Source: Actinomycetota bacterium (lineage in GTDB: Bacteria > Actinomycetota > CADDZG01 > JAHWKV01 > JAOPZY01). From it: a stretch of DNA of 64,000 nucleotides. Position numbers and translations under genes: made by a program. The stretch covers positions 1 to 64,000 of the forward strand of contig DASTWV010000042.1 in assembly GCA_035765775.1 (NCBI GenBank). The letters are read 5' to 3'. Below the pieces are notes generated by a model. That model worked only from the letters and a program-made list of their open reading frames with translations, searched no databases and was not told the origin of the DNA. This document shows positions 52,141 through 63,721 of this stretch, one piece after another (within the stretch, counting starts at the first letter, position 1; each line of letters opens with the position of its first letter).

Positions 52141-53382
52141 ATGCCATCGCACGCCCGCACCGACGAGTGGACCGGACTCATCTCCCTAGACGCCGTGCAC
52201 GAGGCGGCCGCCCGGCTGGCCGACATCTGCCTACCGACGCCGGTCTGGCCGTCACGGATCCTCTCGAGGATGGCTGGAGGCTCGACCCTGCTCAAATGCG
52301 AGAATCTCCAGCGAACCGGGTCCTTCAAGATACGAGGAGCCTACAACCGGATCGCCCGGCTTTCCGGCGAGCAGCGCGCCCGGGGTGTGGTGGCCGCCAG
52401 CGCCGGGAACCACGCCCAGGGCGTCGCCCTGGCGGCCGCGCTCCTGGGCGTGCGCTCCACGGTGTTCATGCCGGCCGGGGCGCCGCTGCCCAAGGTGGAG
52501 GCCACGAAGAAGTACGGGGCGGACGTGGTGCTGCACGGGGCGGTCTACGACGAATCCCATGAGCAAGCCCTCGCCTTCGCCGAGGAGCACGGCGCGGTCC
52601 TGGTGCATCCCTTCGACCACCCCGACGTGATCGCCGGGCAGGCCACCGTCGCCCTCGAGATCCTGGAGCAGACGCCGGATGTCCGCACGATCGTGGTACC
52701 GATCGGCGGCGGCGGGCTGATCTCCGGCATCGCCGCCGCGGCCAAGGCCCTGCGCCCGGACATCCGGATCGTGGGCGCCGAGCCGGCGGGCGCCGCCACC
52801 CTGCGCCGCTGCCTGGACGAGGGCCGGGTGGTCACCCTGCCCGAGGTCTCCACGATCGCCGACGGGCTGGCCGCCAAGCGGGGGGGGGACCTCACCTTCG
52901 AGTACGTGCGCCGCCTGGTGGACGACGTTGTGCTGGTCACCGAAGAGGAGATCGCCCAGGCCCTCCTGCTCATGACCGAGCGGGCGCGGCTGTTGTTGGA
53001 GCCGGCCGCGGCGGTCGGCGTGGCGGCGGCGATGACCCAGCGCTCGACGCTCACCTTCCCGGCGGTGGTGGTCGCCTCGGGGGGCAACATCGACCCGATG
53101 CTGCTGTTGCGGGTGATCCGCTTCGGCATGACCGCCGCCGGGCGCTACTTCGCCTTCCGCACCAAGCTGCACGACCGGCCGGGCGAGTTGGAGCGCCTGG
53201 CTGCCGCCGTCGCCGGGGTGGGGGTCAACGTGGTGGGCATCGAGCACCGGCGGGAGGGCATCCTGCACTCGGTCCTGGGCGATGTCGAGGTGACCATCCA
53301 GGTCGAGCTGCGCGGGCCCGAGCACGTGGAGCAGCTGACCGCCCGCCTCCACGAAGCCGGCTACGAGGTGGACCCGCTGTAG
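52141..53382 (+). CDS. ilvA: Threonine ammonia-lyase
   Basis: A 413-aa PLP enzyme forming 2-oxobutanoate and ammonia from threonine, for isoleucine synthesis or threonine breakdown. The PLP lysine is in TGSFKIRGAYN (about residue 61); ASAGNHAQGVALAA and VPIGGGGLISGIA bind cofactor phosphate. A C-terminal ACT domain (KLHDRPGELERLAAAVAGVGVNVVGIEH) is of the short, single-ACT form typical of the TdcB/IlvA type found in actinobacteria. ATG 52141. selW follows 31 bp downstream. Confidence 0.93.
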   Translation: MPSHARTDEWTGLISLDAVHEAAARLADICLPTPVWPSRILSRMAGGSTLLKCENLQRTGSFKIRGAYNRIARLSGEQRARGVVAASAGNHAQGVALAAALLGVRSTVFMPAGAPLPKVEATKKYGADVVLHGAVYDESHEQALAFAEEHGAVLVHPFDHPDVIAGQATVALEILEQTPDVRTIVVPIGGGGLISGIAAAAKALRPDIRIVGAEPAGAATLRRCLDEGRVVTLPEVSTIADGLAAKRGGDLTFEYVRRLVDDVVLVTEEEIAQALLLMTERARLLLEPAAAVGVAAAMTQRSTLTFPAVVVASGGNIDPMLLLRVIRFGMTAAGRYFAFRTKLHDRPGELERLAAAVAGVGVNVVGIEHRREGILHSVLGDVEVTIQVELRGPEHVEQLTARLHEAGYEVDPL

Positions 53383-53413
53383 CGAAAGGTACACCCCTGG
53401 GTAGTATGGAGCC

Positions 53414-53653
53414 ATGCAAATCACCATCGAGTTCTGTGTCGTCTGAGACTACACAGACAAGGCCGTCGGTCTGGCGACCCAGCTCCTCAACGACATACCC
53501 CGCGACATCCAGAGCCTCACACTGATCCCGTCCGGAGGGGGCGTGTTCGAGGTGTCGGCCAACGGCGACCTCGTGTACTCCAAGAAAGCCACCAAGCGCC
53601 ACCCCACCTACCAGGAAGTCCGGGCAGCGCTGAAGCCGTACGCCGCCACCTAA
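53414..53653 (+). CDS. selW: SelW-like selenoprotein (Rdx family, CxxU)
   Basis: A 79-codon gene with TGA at codon 11 (53444-53446) in frame between ATG 53414 and TAA 53651. Read with Sec it opens MQITIEFCVVUDYTDKAV, the CxxU redox motif after the first strand of the thioredoxin-like Rdx fold. IPSGGGVFEVSANGDLVYSKKATKRHP is the hallmark second half of SelW proteins. GGAG lies just before the ATG. An RNA hairpin with GGUCUG in the loop follows (53465-53478). These proteins are thought to act in thiol redox protection. It ends 4 bp from the convergent mocA-like gene. Confidence 0.93.
53465..53478 (+). promoter_or_regulatory. Candidate SECIS hairpin of selW
   Basis: GTCG (53465-53468) pairs with CGAC (53475-53478) around GTCTGG, beginning 18 nt after the UGA. 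GGTCTG spans the top of the stem and loop, as in the apical loop of the E. coli fdhF SECIS (GGUCU), at a similar distance. Another fold (GGTC/GACC) competes. Confidence 0.6.
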
Positions 53654-54353: not shown

Positions 54354-54980
54354 CTACGGCTTGATCGGCGTCTGCTGGTAGGCGCAGGGCGGACCCGTTG
54401 CCAGGAGGACGCTGCCGAGCGAGAGGCCAGCTGCGGTGCTGAAACCACCGGTCAGACCACAGAAGTCGCCTTCGATGCCGACCACGTTGTTGACGATCGA
54501 GGTCGTGTCGCTCTTGATCTTCTGCACGTCGGTGAGGATCACGCTGGACTGCGTGCCCCGGATGGTGGCGAGGAGCGAGGCAATCGAACCCGGGCCGGAG
54601 TTGACGACGCCCAGGATCGAGGCGACCTGGCCCCGGATGGTGTGCACCAGCCCGTTGATGCTCTGCACGGGCGGCGTGATGCCGTCCACCTCTTGGTCGA
54701 TGTGTGCGGCCGTGGACTGGATGACGGCGATCTGTCCGGTCAGCGGCTGCGCAGCAGCCAGGATGGACGAGGCCGTCTGCTCGGTCATGTTGAGTTGCGC
54801 AACATAGCCCGTGTCGTGCTTGGAACTCGACAGGTCACCGGTGATGACCGTCACTTTGGAGTTGATCTCCTGAGCAGCAACTAGCGTGCGGGTCAGAACC
54901 AGCACCGCCGAGAGTGCCCAGGCAATGACGATGATCAGGGCGATACCCGCCTGCCCTCGATCACTGCGAATGCCTCTCAT
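54354..54980 (-). CDS. One-helix membrane protein, type A (cysteine-pair tail)
   Basis: A protein of about 208 aa from ATG 54980 (GGAGG 5 bp upstream). One N-terminal helix (AGIALIIVIAWALSAVLVLTRTLVA) anchors a long outer part of alternating small and aliphatic residues with I/V/L at heptad-like spacing (IAVIQSTAAHIDQEVDGITPPV, SINGLVHTIRGQVASIL). Cysteines at CGLTGG and PPCAYQQ close the chain, about 24 residues apart. It resembles the products at 55008 and 55686. It is the last gene before the terminator. No family recognised. Confidence 0.78.
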   Translation of the reverse strand: MRGIRSDRGQAGIALIIVIAWALSAVLVLTRTLVAAQEINSKVTVITGDLSSSKHDTGYVAQLNMTEQTASSILAAAQPLTGQIAVIQSTAAHIDQEVDGITPPVQSINGLVHTIRGQVASILGVVNSGPGSIASLLATIRGTQSSVILTDVQKIKSDTTSIVNNVVGIEGDFCGLTGGFSTAAGLSLGSVLLATGPPCAYQQTPIKP

Positions 54981-55007
54981 GAACACCTCCGTCGAAATCC
55001 TGGTTCG

Positions 55008-58184: not shown

Positions 58185-58748
58185 CTACTTCTTGCCGAAC
58201 TTGAACAGGTTCTTGAAGAACGCCTTGGCGGAGAGCAGCATGAGGGAGAAGCCGCTCATGGCCTTGGGCGCCTTGCCCGCCTTGCCGCCCCCCACGCCGC
58301 CACCTTTGATGTCGGCGGCCGCGCACGCGGCGAACTGCTTCATCAGGGCGCCGATGACGTCAACCATCATGCCGCGGCCGTACTGGGCGATGGCGCCCGT
58401 CATGTTGATGTCCTGGTTCAAGCGCACGGTGGTGCCGCCGCCGGCCGCCACCATGGTGGAGGTCACCTTGGCGGACGCCTGCCCCTTGCCCTTCTCCTCG
58501 GCGCCGGTGGCCACCATGACCACCCGGTGGGCGCCTTCGTTCTTCTCCTGGATGTCGATGACGCCCCCGAAGGCGAGCTTCAGCGGACCCATCGAGACCT
58601 TCACCCGGCCCTTGACCTGACGGTCGGTGGCCGACACGATCTCAGCCCCGGGCATGCACTTGGCCACCCGCGGGAAGTCGTTCATGTACTTCCATACCGT
58701 GTCCACCGGTGCTGGAATGGTGAACTCGTTGTCGATGACTACTCCCAT
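58185..58748 (-). CDS. coxG: CO dehydrogenase subunit G (CoxG, SRPBCC)
   Basis: A 187-aa CoxG protein: VVIDNEFTIPAPVDTVWKYMNDFPRVAKCMPGAEIV, KGRVKVSMGPLKLAFGGVIDIQEKNE and VRLNQDINMTGAIAQYGRGMMVDV are family hallmarks. The C-terminal tail ends in an amphipathic FSLMLLSAKAFFKNLFKFGKK that could touch the membrane. CoxG is thought to bind quinone and bring it to CO dehydrogenase. ATG 58748 has GAGGAGGGGG. It stands between the XdhC gene and the membrane-protein run. Confidence 0.93.
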   Translation of the reverse strand: MGVVIDNEFTIPAPVDTVWKYMNDFPRVAKCMPGAEIVSATDRQVKGRVKVSMGPLKLAFGGVIDIQEKNEGAHRVVMVATGAEEKGKGQASAKVTSTMVAAGGGTTVRLNQDINMTGAIAQYGRGMMVDVIGALMKQFAACAAADIKGGGVGGGKAGKAPKAMSGFSLMLLSAKAFFKNLFKFGKK

Positions 58749-58991
58749 GCCCCCTCCTCTATCGAAGCCCAGTTTTGTGCGGGAACAAACCCTATAGCTT
58801 TCACAATCTCAAAGTCCAAAACGGTGGTGGCCTGCGGCACGCCCGAGGCCGCGGAACAGCACATGGCGACGCACGGCTACGCGCGGGTGCGCGCACCGGT
58901 GGCTGGCCCCGGCAGCGAGGTGCCGCGGTCATGCAGGCAAAGACTGGGGGGTCGTACGAGGCAATACGCGGTGGTTTGAACCCCGCATCGA

Positions 58992-60176
58992 TCAGGAGGC
59001 GCCGACGCGGGCGGCGCTGGGGGTGCCGTCGAGGTCCGTGGTGAGCTCGGAGCTGCGGTCGTGGATGTGGCCCGGCCGGTCCCGGAGGAACCCGGCGGAG
59101 CGGCCCGAGCGCACGGCGATCACCTCCGACATGATTGCCCACGCCACCTCCTCAGGGCCCTCGGCCCCGATGTCGAGGCCGGATGGGGCATAGATCTTGG
59201 CGAGGTCGGCCTCGGAGGGCTGGACGCCTTCCTTGGCGAGGTCGGTCAGCACGCTGTCCAAGCGCTTGCGGGGCCCGAGCGACCCGATGTAGGCGACAGC
59301 GGTGCCCAGGTAGGAGCGGATGTAGTCCTTGTCCCGAAGGTAGTTGTGGCTCATCACCAGGACGAAGGTGCGGTGATCGGCGCCCGTGACCGAGGCGGCC
59401 TCCTCCGGCCGGCTCAGAGGCACGAAGCCTTCCGCCTCGGGGAAGCGGTCCTTGGTGAGGAAGCGGTCGCGGTCGTCCACGACGATGGGCCGCCAGCCGA
59501 GCTGGGCGGCGAAGCGCACCACCGGGATGGCGTCGTGGCCGGCGCCACACACCAGCAGGCGGGGGCTGGGCTCCAACACCTCGACGAAGGCGGTGAACGT
59601 GGCGTCGCCGATGGCGATCGGGCGCTTGATCGAGGCGCCGGTGGCCAGCGCCTCGGCGGCGGCCACCACGGCGGCCTCGTCGGCGGCGGTGCTGCCCAGC
59701 GAGCGCTCGCTCCGCCCGTCGGGGTGGACGAGGATCCGGCCCCCGTGCTCGACCCCTTCGGCGGTGCCGGCATCGATGACGGTGACCACGGCCAGATCCC
59801 GTTCCTCACTGAGCGCCCGGCGCAGGTCGGCGGTCACCTCGACCGCCTTCTCGGCCGGCTCGACAAAGAGCTCGACGGCACCGTTGCAGCCGAGACCCCA
59901 GCCCCAGACCGCCTCGTCGTCGGCGGTGAGATCGAAGTCCACCATGGTGGCCTTGCCATTGCCCATCACCCGGCGGGCCACCTCCTGCACATCGCCTTCC
60001 AGGCAGCCGCCTGAGATGTTGCCCACCATGTCGCCGGACTCCGGCACCAGCAGGCGGGCACCCGGGCGCCGGTAGGTGGATCCCCGGACGGCCACGATGG
60101 TGGCGAGTGCCATCTTCTCCCCCCGACCGGCGAGGGTCTCGATGGCTTCCAGGACGTCGGCGATTTCGCTGCTCAT
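58992..60176 (-). CDS. XdhC/CoxI-family molybdenum-enzyme maturation protein
   Basis: A 394-aa protein with the N-terminal XdhC_CoxI domain (MALATIVAVRGSTYRRPGARLLV, ISGGCLEGDVQEVARRV) and C-terminal Rossmann XdhC_C domain (RLLVCGAGHDAIPVVRFAAQLGWRPIVVDDR, YIGSLGPRKR). Such proteins carry and sulfurate molybdenum cofactor for xanthine or CO dehydrogenase. ATG 60176. It lies 60 bp after the second XdhC gene. Confidence 0.93.
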   Translation of the reverse strand: MSSEIADVLEAIETLAGRGEKMALATIVAVRGSTYRRPGARLLVPESGDMVGNISGGCLEGDVQEVARRVMGNGKATMVDFDLTADDEAVWGWGLGCNGAVELFVEPAEKAVEVTADLRRALSEERDLAVVTVIDAGTAEGVEHGGRILVHPDGRSERSLGSTAADEAAVVAAAEALATGASIKRPIAIGDATFTAFVEVLEPSPRLLVCGAGHDAIPVVRFAAQLGWRPIVVDDRDRFLTKDRFPEAEGFVPLSRPEEAASVTGADHRTFVLVMSHNYLRDKDYIRSYLGTAVAYIGSLGPRKRLDSVLTDLAKEGVQPSEADLAKIYAPSGLDIGAEGPEEVAWAIMSEVIAVRSGRSAGFLRDRPGHIHDRSSELTTDLDGTPSAARVGAS

Positions 60177-60236
60177 GTGTGCGGCTCCCTCGTTACCCGG
60201 CCCTCACCCCGCCATCGGGTGGGCCTTGCCGCGGTC

Positions 60237-61268
60237 CTACGCCGGGACGGCAAGGTAGCTGGCAGGGTCTTTTTCAAACTTCTTCTTGCATGCCGGGCAG
60301 CAGAAGTAGAAGGTCTGCCCGTCGTGCTCCGTCGTGAAGCGGGCGGTGGCGATGTCCACGAGCATCTCGCACACGGGGTCCACCGCCTCGCCCAGCTCGG
60401 CGACCCGCTCTGCGGGCGCCATCTCGGCGTCGGGCGCCATCTCGGCGTCGGGCGGCGCCGTATGGGCAAAGGTGACCAGCGCACGGTTGGCGGCCACGAA
60501 CTGCACCAGCTCGGCCAGCACACCGACCGCGATCTCGTCATGGCGCAGGCTGCCGAGGTCCAGCCCGGCGGGCGCCTTCATCCGGGTGAGCTGCTCTGGG
60601 CTGTAGCCCACGTCGCTCAGCCACTCCATCACCGACTTGCCCCGCTTGCGGGAGGCGATCAGACCGATGTATGCCGCCGGTGACGCCAGGGCCTTGTCGA
60701 CGGCCAGCTCGTCGTACTGGCCTTGTGTGGCCACTACCACCAGCGAGCCTTCGTTGACTCCGGCGAGTTCCAGATCCAGGGTGGTGACCACACGGCCCGC
60801 CTCCGGGTGGGCCTCGGGGTCACCCTTGTCATCCACCACGACGGTGCGCCAACCCAGGGTGTTGGCCATCCGGGTCAGGGTCCCCACCAGGGGCGTGCGG
60901 CCGATGACCACGAGGTGCGGCTTGGGCAGCACCGGCTGCACGAACAGCTCGATGGCCCCCTCGCTCTGGCACTGCATGGGGACGAGGCTGATGCCGTCGC
61001 CCTCCCGGGCCTTCAGCTCCTCGGGAGAGCCGAGGAGTACCACCCGGGCCTCACCGGACTCGATGGCCTTCCGGGACTCCCGGATGACCACTGCCTCGGA
61101 GCACGCCCCGGACAACCAGCCGCGGACCTTGCCGGCGGCGGTGACGATGGCCTGGTTGCCCGGCTGTGCCGAGGAGGGGGCCCGACGCCACACCACGGTG
61201 GCCAGAGCGAAGGGCTCGCCCCGTCGGGACAACTCCTGGCGCAACTCGAGAAGATCCTCAGCCATCAT
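60237..61268 (-). CDS. XdhC/CoxI-family protein fused to a YHS domain
   Basis: About 343 aa. XdhC_CoxI (FALATVVWRRAPSSAQPGNQAIV, GWLSGACSEAVVIRESRKAIE) and XdhC_C (HLVVIGRTPLVGTLTRMANTLGWRTVVVDD, YIGLIASRKRG) are followed by a C-terminal YHS domain: VDPVCEMLVDIATARFTTEHDGQTFYFCCPACKKKFEKDPASYL. YHS domains bind metal such as copper. A tandem PDAEMA-PDAEMA (18-bp repeat) joins the parts. ATG 61268 or 61265 are both possible. A role in bringing Cu to the Mo/Cu site is a guess. Confidence 0.9.
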   Translation of the reverse strand: MMAEDLLELRQELSRRGEPFALATVVWRRAPSSAQPGNQAIVTAAGKVRGWLSGACSEAVVIRESRKAIESGEARVVLLGSPEELKAREGDGISLVPMQCQSEGAIELFVQPVLPKPHLVVIGRTPLVGTLTRMANTLGWRTVVVDDKGDPEAHPEAGRVVTTLDLELAGVNEGSLVVVATQGQYDELAVDKALASPAAYIGLIASRKRGKSVMEWLSDVGYSPEQLTRMKAPAGLDLGSLRHDEIAVGVLAELVQFVAANRALVTFAHTAPPDAEMAPDAEMAPAERVAELGEAVDPVCEMLVDIATARFTTEHDGQTFYFCCPACKKKFEKDPASYLAVPA

Positions 61269-61345
61269 CACCGCCGCCTAACTTGGTCAACTGTTGTAGC
61301 TATTCACAACGATGCTGCGTACTGCGGTATTCCGACGTCGCCGGC

Positions 61346-63721
61346 TTAGGTGCCGGGCAGCGGCGGGGTGCCAGGCACGTCGTGCTTGTAGTGCATGGCT
61401 TCCCACACACGGCTCGACAGGCACGGCATGTCGATGTTGCGGACCCCGAGGTGGGCGATGGCGTCGACCACGGCGTTCACGAAGGCGGCGGGGCCACCCA
61501 CGCAGCCGCACTCCCCGATGCCCTTGCACCCGATCGGGTGGTGAGGCGACGGGGTGACGACCTCGTACAGCTCGAAGTGCGGGGTCTCCCAGGCGGTCGG
61601 GATCATGTAGTCCATGTAGTTGGCCCCGATGCAGTTGCCCTGGGAGTCGAACGTGATCATCTGGTGGTACGCCATGGCGAACGCCTCGGCGAGACCGCCG
61701 TGCAGCTGCGCCTCCACGATCATCGGGTTGATGCGGACGCCGCAGTCGTCAACGCCGATGAACTTGAGGACATCCCACTCCCCGGTGTCGGGGTCGACCT
61801 CGACCGTGGTGATGTACACGTCGAACGGCCAGGTCATGTTGGGCGGGTCGTAGTACGCGTTGTTCTCCAGGCCGGGCTCGAGGCCGTCGGGCATGTTGGT
61901 GTAGGCCGCGAAGGCGCAGTCCTGGATGGTGACGCCGCGGTTGGGGGCGGAGCGCACGTAGAAGCGCCCGAGCTCCCACTCCACGTCTTCCTCGGATACC
62001 TCGAGGAGGTGGGCGGCGAGCTTCTTGGCCTTGGCCCGCACCTTGCGGGAGACCATGGCAGTGGCGGCGCCGGCGGTCGGGGTGGACCGGGAGGCGTAGG
62101 TGCCCATGCCGAACGGCGTGTTGTCGGTGTCGCCGTGCTGGACCAGGATGTCGTCCGCCGGGATCCCCAGCTCGTGGGTCACGATCTGAGCGAAGGTGGT
62201 CTCGTGGCCCTGACCCTGCGTCTTGGAACCGATCTTCAGGACGGCCTTGCCGGAGGGGTGAACCCGCAGCTCGGCGGAGTCGAACATCTTGATGCCGATG
62301 ATGTCGTACTCACGGGAGTTGCCGGCGCCCAGCGGCTCCGACATCGTCGAGATGCCGATGCCCAGGAGGCGGCCCTGGCTGCGAGCCTGCTTCTGGCGCT
62401 CGAGGAAGCCGTAGTAGTCGATCTTCTCCAGGCCCAGGTCCAGGCACTTGTCGTAGTCACCGGAGTCCAGCAGGAACCCGAACGTGGTGCGGTGCGGGAA
62501 CTCCCGGACGAAGTTGACCCGGCGGAACTCGGCCTGGTCCATGCCGATCTCGTAGGCGCAGGTCTGCATGAAGCGCTCCTGGAACAGCATCGACTCGGTG
62601 ATCCGGAACGAGCACCGGTAGGCGACACCCCCGGGAGCCTTGTTGGTGTAGTGGCCCTGGGCGGTCATGTAGCCGTAGGGGATGTCGTAGCAGCCGAAGA
62701 TCGAGTGGAACAGGCCGATCTTGAACTTGGTCGGCTGGGCGTCCGAGAAGAACCCACCGTTGTCGGTGTCGGCGTGGATGCGCACCGCCTGGATCTTGCC
62801 GTCCTTGCGGATGGCGGCGTCGCAGTGGAAGTAGATGTCCCGGGCGAACGACGACGAGATAAGGTTGCCGGTCTTGTCCTCGATCCACTTCACCGGCCTG
62901 GTGAGAAGGATGGAGGCCAGGATGGCGATGACGTAGCTGGGGTACACCGGCACCTTGTTGCCGAAACCGCCGCCGAGGTCGGGGGCGATGACCCGGATCA
63001 TGTGCTCGGGAAGCTCGGCCACCAGGGCGACAGCCGTGCGGATGATGTGCGGCGCCTGGGTGGTCAGGTAGATGGTCAGCTTGCCCGTGGCGGAGTTGTA
63101 GTCGCTGATGATCGCGTTGCACTCGATCGGGCAGGCGTGGGTGCGGGGGTAGTAGATGTCCTGCGAGACGATCTGCAGGTTCGGGTCGGCGAACACCCGC
63201 TCGGTGTTCTCCTTGTCTCCCACTTCCCAGGTGTAGCAGATGTTGTTGGTCTGGCCTGCCTTGTCGTCCCGGATGATCGGGGCGCCGGGGGCGAGGGCCT
63301 GCTGCGGGTTCACGATCGGGGGAAGCGGGTCGTACTCGACCGTGATCGCCTCGCATGCGTCCTTGGCGATGTAGGGGTCGTCGGCCACAACGCAGGCGAT
63401 CTCCTGGCCCTGGAAGCGCACCTTGTCCGTCACCAGGACGGCCTGGGTGTCGTAGCTCAGAGTCGGCATCCACGCCAGGTTGTGCTGGGCAGCCATCTCA
63501 CCGGTGACGACCAGGTGCACACCCGGCGTCATCCATGCCTTTGAGGTGTCCAGTGAGGTAATCCGTGCGTGCGCGATGGGCGCCCGCAGGGTCTCCATGT
63601 GGAGCATGCCGGGGAGCTTGAAGTCGTCGATGTAGTTGCCCTTGCCCCGGATGAAGCGCGCATCCTCGACCCGCTTGCGGCTGGCGCCGAGGCCACCGAT
63701 CTGGATCTCGTCTAATGCCAT
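61346..63721 (-). CDS. coxL: Form I aerobic CO dehydrogenase large subunit
   Basis: A 791-aa Mo/Cu enzyme that oxidises CO to CO2. The form I active-site loop GGVAYRCSFR is present, with the Cu-binding Cys at about residue 370; form II enzymes have AYRGAGR instead. GGGFGNKVPVYP, GQGHETTFAQI and KGIGECGCVGG (catalytic Glu) bind the molybdopterin cytosine dinucleotide site. ATG 63721 has AAGGAG. It directly follows coxS. The partner coxM probably lies beyond the right edge. Confidence 0.97.
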   Translation of the reverse strand: MALDEIQIGGLGASRKRVEDARFIRGKGNYIDDFKLPGMLHMETLRAPIAHARITSLDTSKAWMTPGVHLVVTGEMAAQHNLAWMPTLSYDTQAVLVTDKVRFQGQEIACVVADDPYIAKDACEAITVEYDPLPPIVNPQQALAPGAPIIRDDKAGQTNNICYTWEVGDKENTERVFADPNLQIVSQDIYYPRTHACPIECNAIISDYNSATGKLTIYLTTQAPHIIRTAVALVAELPEHMIRVIAPDLGGGFGNKVPVYPSYVIAILASILLTRPVKWIEDKTGNLISSSFARDIYFHCDAAIRKDGKIQAVRIHADTDNGGFFSDAQPTKFKIGLFHSIFGCYDIPYGYMTAQGHYTNKAPGGVAYRCSFRITESMLFQERFMQTCAYEIGMDQAEFRRVNFVREFPHRTTFGFLLDSGDYDKCLDLGLEKIDYYGFLERQKQARSQGRLLGIGISTMSEPLGAGNSREYDIIGIKMFDSAELRVHPSGKAVLKIGSKTQGQGHETTFAQIVTHELGIPADDILVQHGDTDNTPFGMGTYASRSTPTAGAATAMVSRKVRAKAKKLAAHLLEVSEEDVEWELGRFYVRSAPNRGVTIQDCAFAAYTNMPDGLEPGLENNAYYDPPNMTWPFDVYITTVEVDPDTGEWDVLKFIGVDDCGVRINPMIVEAQLHGGLAEAFAMAYHQMITFDSQGNCIGANYMDYMIPTAWETPHFELYEVVTPSPHHPIGCKGIGECGCVGGPAAFVNAVVDAIAHLGVRNIDMPCLSSRVWEAMHYKHDVPGTPPLPGT

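Follow-up and report, generated by a model that had tools for sequence, protein, structure and literature searches.

The question raised by this locus is how a short reading frame with a single in-frame TGA is to be read: as a selenoprotein gene, as a decayed gene, or as a frame in which UGA stands for something other than selenocysteine (Sec). The frame lies in the window, by which we mean the whole 64,000-nucleotide stretch of DNA that was analysed. An earlier note had described here a CVVU motif (Cys-x-x-TGA) followed by an Rdx-family body, and its coordinates proved exact:

53414-53653, plus strand: coding sequence of the putative SelW-like (Rdx) selenoprotein, 79 aa with UGA read as selenocysteine, TAA stop
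53435-53446, plus strand: CxxU redox motif, Cys8-Val-Val-Sec11; all 31 sequences have Cys8, and Sec or Cys in column 11
53444-53446, plus strand: putative UGA selenocysteine codon; TGA in 25 of 30 homologues, TGT or TGC in 5

The frame opens with ATG at 53414, and its translation runs MQITIEFCVVU-DYTDKAVGLATQLL..., with TGT (Cys8) at 53435, the only in-frame TGA at 53444-53446 and TAA at 53651-53653. The first in-frame start past the TGA is a GTG at 53543, which leaves a gene finder 36 residues at most. Gene finders would miss the gene, and the 69-residue fragment offered in the earlier note as the other outcome is wrong. According to a genome scan, this is the only Rdx gene of the window's genome.

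Membership in the family was clear from the profile search against Rdx (PF10262), the check that the earlier note had proposed: with U read as C, the protein scored 71.1 bits (E 9.3e-20) against a gathering cut-off of 22.6 bits; scanning the genome with translation through the TGA gave 62.9 bits. TIGR02174 was also matched above its cut-off. The NCBIfam equivalog NF041051 (SelTWH_Campy) scored 74.1 bits, below its curated cut-off of 88 bits, which places the gene outside that equivalog and in the wider family only. An AlphaFold2 model of the 79-residue protein, computed from a three-sequence alignment, reached a pLDDT of 92, and its best Foldseek matches were the solved SelW-like proteins 2obk and 2fa8 (TM about 0.9), with 2oka, 2p0g and 3dex also at a TM of about 0.9 and mouse SelW (2npb) at a TM of 0.70. 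The model has a thioredoxin-like fold with the CxxC/CxxU pair at the first strand-helix turn, and the fold together with this pair points to a thioredoxin-like redox function.

An Rdx gene was found in 30 of the 100 genomes sampled, which comprise the window's own and relatives in the same phylum. With the window left out, 30 other loci were available for comparison (29 from this search plus L056; L055 is the same contig as L031), and 25 of them carry TGA at exactly the codon of residue 11, the other five having TGT or TGC. One in-frame stop is also what would be seen in a pseudogene, that is, a Cys-type Rdx gene in which TGC or TGT had mutated to TGA and function was lost, and the window's hairpin, described below, is indeed weaker than those of its relatives. 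Yet the TGA is kept in homologues down to about 35% identity, synonymous sites past it are conserved and the Sec machinery is present in the genome, all of which makes such decay very improbable. Stops or frameshifts elsewhere in the homologues, named in the earlier note as grounds for abandoning the selenoprotein, did not turn up either: no further stop lies within the matched frame of any of the 25 TGA homologues.

On contig 44, the window's genome (3.6 Mb, 62 contigs, 95.8% complete) encodes SelA (510 bits) with SelB (296 bits) as its neighbour; SelD (372 bits) is encoded on contig 32 and has its own in-frame TGA at the classical Sec position, HGAG-U-ACK. Two tRNA-Sec genes with the anticodon TCA scored 80 bits each. 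Absence of this machinery had been the other outcome held to count against the selenoprotein, and SelA, SelB, SelD and tRNA-Sec were all present. Given these genes and the TGA-containing formate-dehydrogenase-like gene described below, the cell is in all likelihood able to decode UGA as Sec. A second SelB-like match, on C2 (396 aa), was set aside as probably EF-Tu judging by its length. The same gene set bears on the idea that UGA stands for another residue, through genome-wide reassignment to Trp or Cys, or is passed by unspecific readthrough. The frame would be open under such a code, but a dedicated tRNA-Sec, SelA and SelB are present, no TGA interrupts the genes for SelA, SelB and the other family matches of this genome, and those encountered in frame were at the Sec position of SelD, in the Rdx gene and in one formate-dehydrogenase-like gene; we regard this idea as exceedingly improbable.

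Several further observations concern the Sec genes of this genome. The two tRNA-Sec genes, at C55:3940-4029 (+) (L001:1501-1592) and C30:363-452 (-) (L002:361-452), stand in unrelated surroundings and show 3 differences over 92 positions, every one of them within the long variable arm, with the same fold predicted for both; a few genomes have been reported to carry several non-identical tRNA-Sec genes each (PMC5330540). A partial second SelA (the C-terminal 112 positions, 56 bits) lies at a contig edge, C37:8-346 (L018:8-346), beside an ORF that is transposase-like by its translation. The formate-dehydrogenase-like gene at C59:198692-199441 (-) (L058) has one in-frame TGA (ENQARI-U-HSSTV) followed 18 nt later by a hairpin, CCCC-AGUUU-GGGG, and is probably another selenoprotein gene of this genome.

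Across the relatives, SelA or tRNA-Sec was present in 21 of 24 with a UGA gene and in 50 of 75 others (Fisher p = 0.07), a gene-machinery association that is weak alone, since the machinery occurs in many genomes of this phylum in any case. Neither SelA nor tRNA-Sec was found in three MAGs with a UGA gene (L032, L035 and L040; genomes G013, G018 and G032). The hairpin is intact in these three genes, and either contigs are missing from the draft genomes or the machinery has been lost.

Whether an RNA signal accompanies the UGA was judged from the following element and its counterparts:

53461-53479, plus strand: SECIS-like hairpin GG-C-CGUC-GGUCU-GGCG-A-CC, loop GGUCU at 53468-53472, from the alignment and pair counts

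Among the 26 UGA genes, the window included, 22 carry a near-invariant CCGUC-GGUCU-GRCGG or a paired variant of it, and the stretch G-CCGUC-GGUCU-GRCGG begins 15 nt past the UGA. Synonymous sites are conserved through GCC GTC GGT CTG RCG: GGT encodes the loop Gly in 21 of 21 cases (it makes up 10% of the Gly codons in the remainder of these genes), CTG the Leu in 21 of 22 (36% elsewhere) and ACG the Thr in 10 of 10 (30% elsewhere), counts that come from related sequences and are not independent draws. Columns 23 and 31 pair as U-A in 10 sequences, as U-G in 10 and as C-G in two (L049 and L052), so that in the last two the stem survives a U to C change, the other inner pairs being constant; when the partner is slid by 1-3 columns, at most 51% of the cells remain paired, down from 84%. 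The 22-sequence alignment thus has what is expected of a bacterial SECIS, namely a conserved hairpin with a G in a small apical loop shortly past the UGA. Viral contigs served as a control: GCCGTCGGTCTGRCGG occurs 75 more times there, never behind a TGA at the right spacing. With the TGA kept in 25 of 30 loci and synonymous conservation downstream, the hairpin motif is more than a chance occurrence.

The peptide AVGL is conserved at the protein level too, and the gene could in principle be a selenoprotein gene in which GGTCTG reflects this peptide only, with no RNA signal. The uniform use of GGT, against its rarity elsewhere in the same genes, speaks against this, as do the Cys homologues, which lack the motif: two of them with ALGL use GGC CTG ATC, which shows that the constraint goes with the UGA. 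We consider a purely peptide-level constraint hardly credible. The comparative set of 26 UGA genes and 5 Cys genes is what allows the SECIS signal to be told apart from constraint on the protein.

The window's own hairpin is less convincing. Its GGTCTG (53468-53473) begins 21 nt past the TGA, but A at 53477 gives a C-A mismatch and leaves the stem one pair poorer than the family's. Folded alone, it reaches -5.0 kcal/mol compared with -12.2 for the nearest relative (L026), its predicted pair probability is about 0.15, and greater stability is predicted for most other synonymous codings of these residues; folding the window's sequence by itself gives the hairpin no support, and an Rfam search of the region returned no match at E up to 5. 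The GGTCTG hairpin proposed in the earlier note is therefore borne out for the family, whereas the window's stem is weak by itself. In a covariance model of the 22 hairpins, the window's site was the sole match in its genome, which makes the model too specific for finding other selenoprotein genes. Four UGA genes are without the GGTCTG motif (L028, L033, L043 and L046; genomes G065, G076, G087 and G052). All four share GCC GTG at the motif's place and form other hairpins. In G065, G052 and G087, the SelA match starts only at model position 59-70, and the form of SelA may covary with the SECIS class in these three genomes.

Overall, the profile match, the fold, the exchange of Sec and Cys at one column, the conserved SECIS-like RNA and the complete machinery agree, and the locus is very probably an ordinary bacterial SelW-like selenoprotein gene, as the earlier note had proposed, with UGA decoded as Sec through SelA, SelB, SelD and the hairpin; sequence evidence shows the parts of the gene, the genes of the machinery and the constraint acting in evolution. 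SelA would make selenocysteyl-tRNA from seryl-tRNA-Sec with selenophosphate supplied by SelD, and SelB would bring it to the ribosome, where the hairpin, with its GGUCU loop about 21 nt downstream, would place SelB at the UGA. Decoding of the UGA as selenocysteine would then yield a thioredoxin-like protein of 79 residues in which CxxU forms the redox pair. Actual Sec insertion and redox activity are inferred here from what is already established for this family and for Sec decoding in bacteria.

The gene upstream is the following:

52159-53382, plus strand: PLP enzyme of the threonine dehydratase type with a C-terminal ACT domain (PALP, 289.7 bits); 52159 is not fixed as the gene start

It ends 31 bp before the SelW-like coding sequence on the same strand, and this arrangement recurs in L026, the nearest relative (78% identity), where a MobA-like gene is likewise retained on the other side, and in a genome from the same taxonomic order (L031); in L034, the PLP enzyme lies on the opposite side of the SelW-like gene. 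A TAGTAT at 53402-53407 would set the transcript start near the ATG, making a leaderless mRNA possible. A bolder proposal, which we think improbable, is that SelW serves in this lineage as redox partner of the adjacent threonine-dehydratase-type enzyme or its pathway, and that branches of the phylum differ in SECIS loop class along with an altered SelA; if true, such a partnership would give bacterial SelW an assigned role. Elsewhere in the window, 58185-63721 (-) is occupied by a cluster of the aerobic CO dehydrogenase/xanthine dehydrogenase type, whose predicted products are CoxG, a molybdopterin hydroxylase large subunit and two proteins of the XdhC/CoxI kind, one of them carrying a YHS domain. 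Between 54354 and 58104 (-), small ORFs follow one another on one strand, and several of their products have a hydrophobic segment at the N-terminus; the only one scanned (54357-54986) had no Pfam match.

Bacterial SelW-like selenoproteins were described in 2005 (PMC1088965), and counts gave 10 genes in 2006 (PMC1794560) and 35 in 2016 (PMC5029168); a 2026 review lists PF10262 with CxxU among the families predicted with high confidence (PMC13188914), and a report on epsilonproteobacteria describes such genes as often overlooked by annotation (PMC4607533). The gene at 53414-53653 is thus the correct identification of a further member of a family already known in bacteria, and it leaves general knowledge of selenoproteins unchanged while adding a well-supported, normally unannotated selenoprotein to the uncultured Actinomycetota. 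It shares its fold with the solved Rdx proteins 2fa8, 2oka, 2obk, 2ojl, 2p0g and 3dex (TM about 0.9), to which it is related in sequence; in 2fa8 and 2oka, the aligned residue is Cys, whereas the window's gene has UGA. The SECIS of Escherichia coli fdhF has the apical loop GGUCU; the loop is the same in the two and the distance from the UGA similar, whereas the stem sequence differs. With the bacterial SelW-like selenoproteins described so far (PMC1088965; PMC1794560; PMC13188914), the gene has in common PF10262, the CxxU position and a bacterial hairpin with a G in the apical loop directly past the UGA; it differs in coming from another lineage, an uncultured actinomycetotal one, and in the particular near-invariant GGUCU loop, with its CCGUC/GRCGG stem, of the set to which it belongs.
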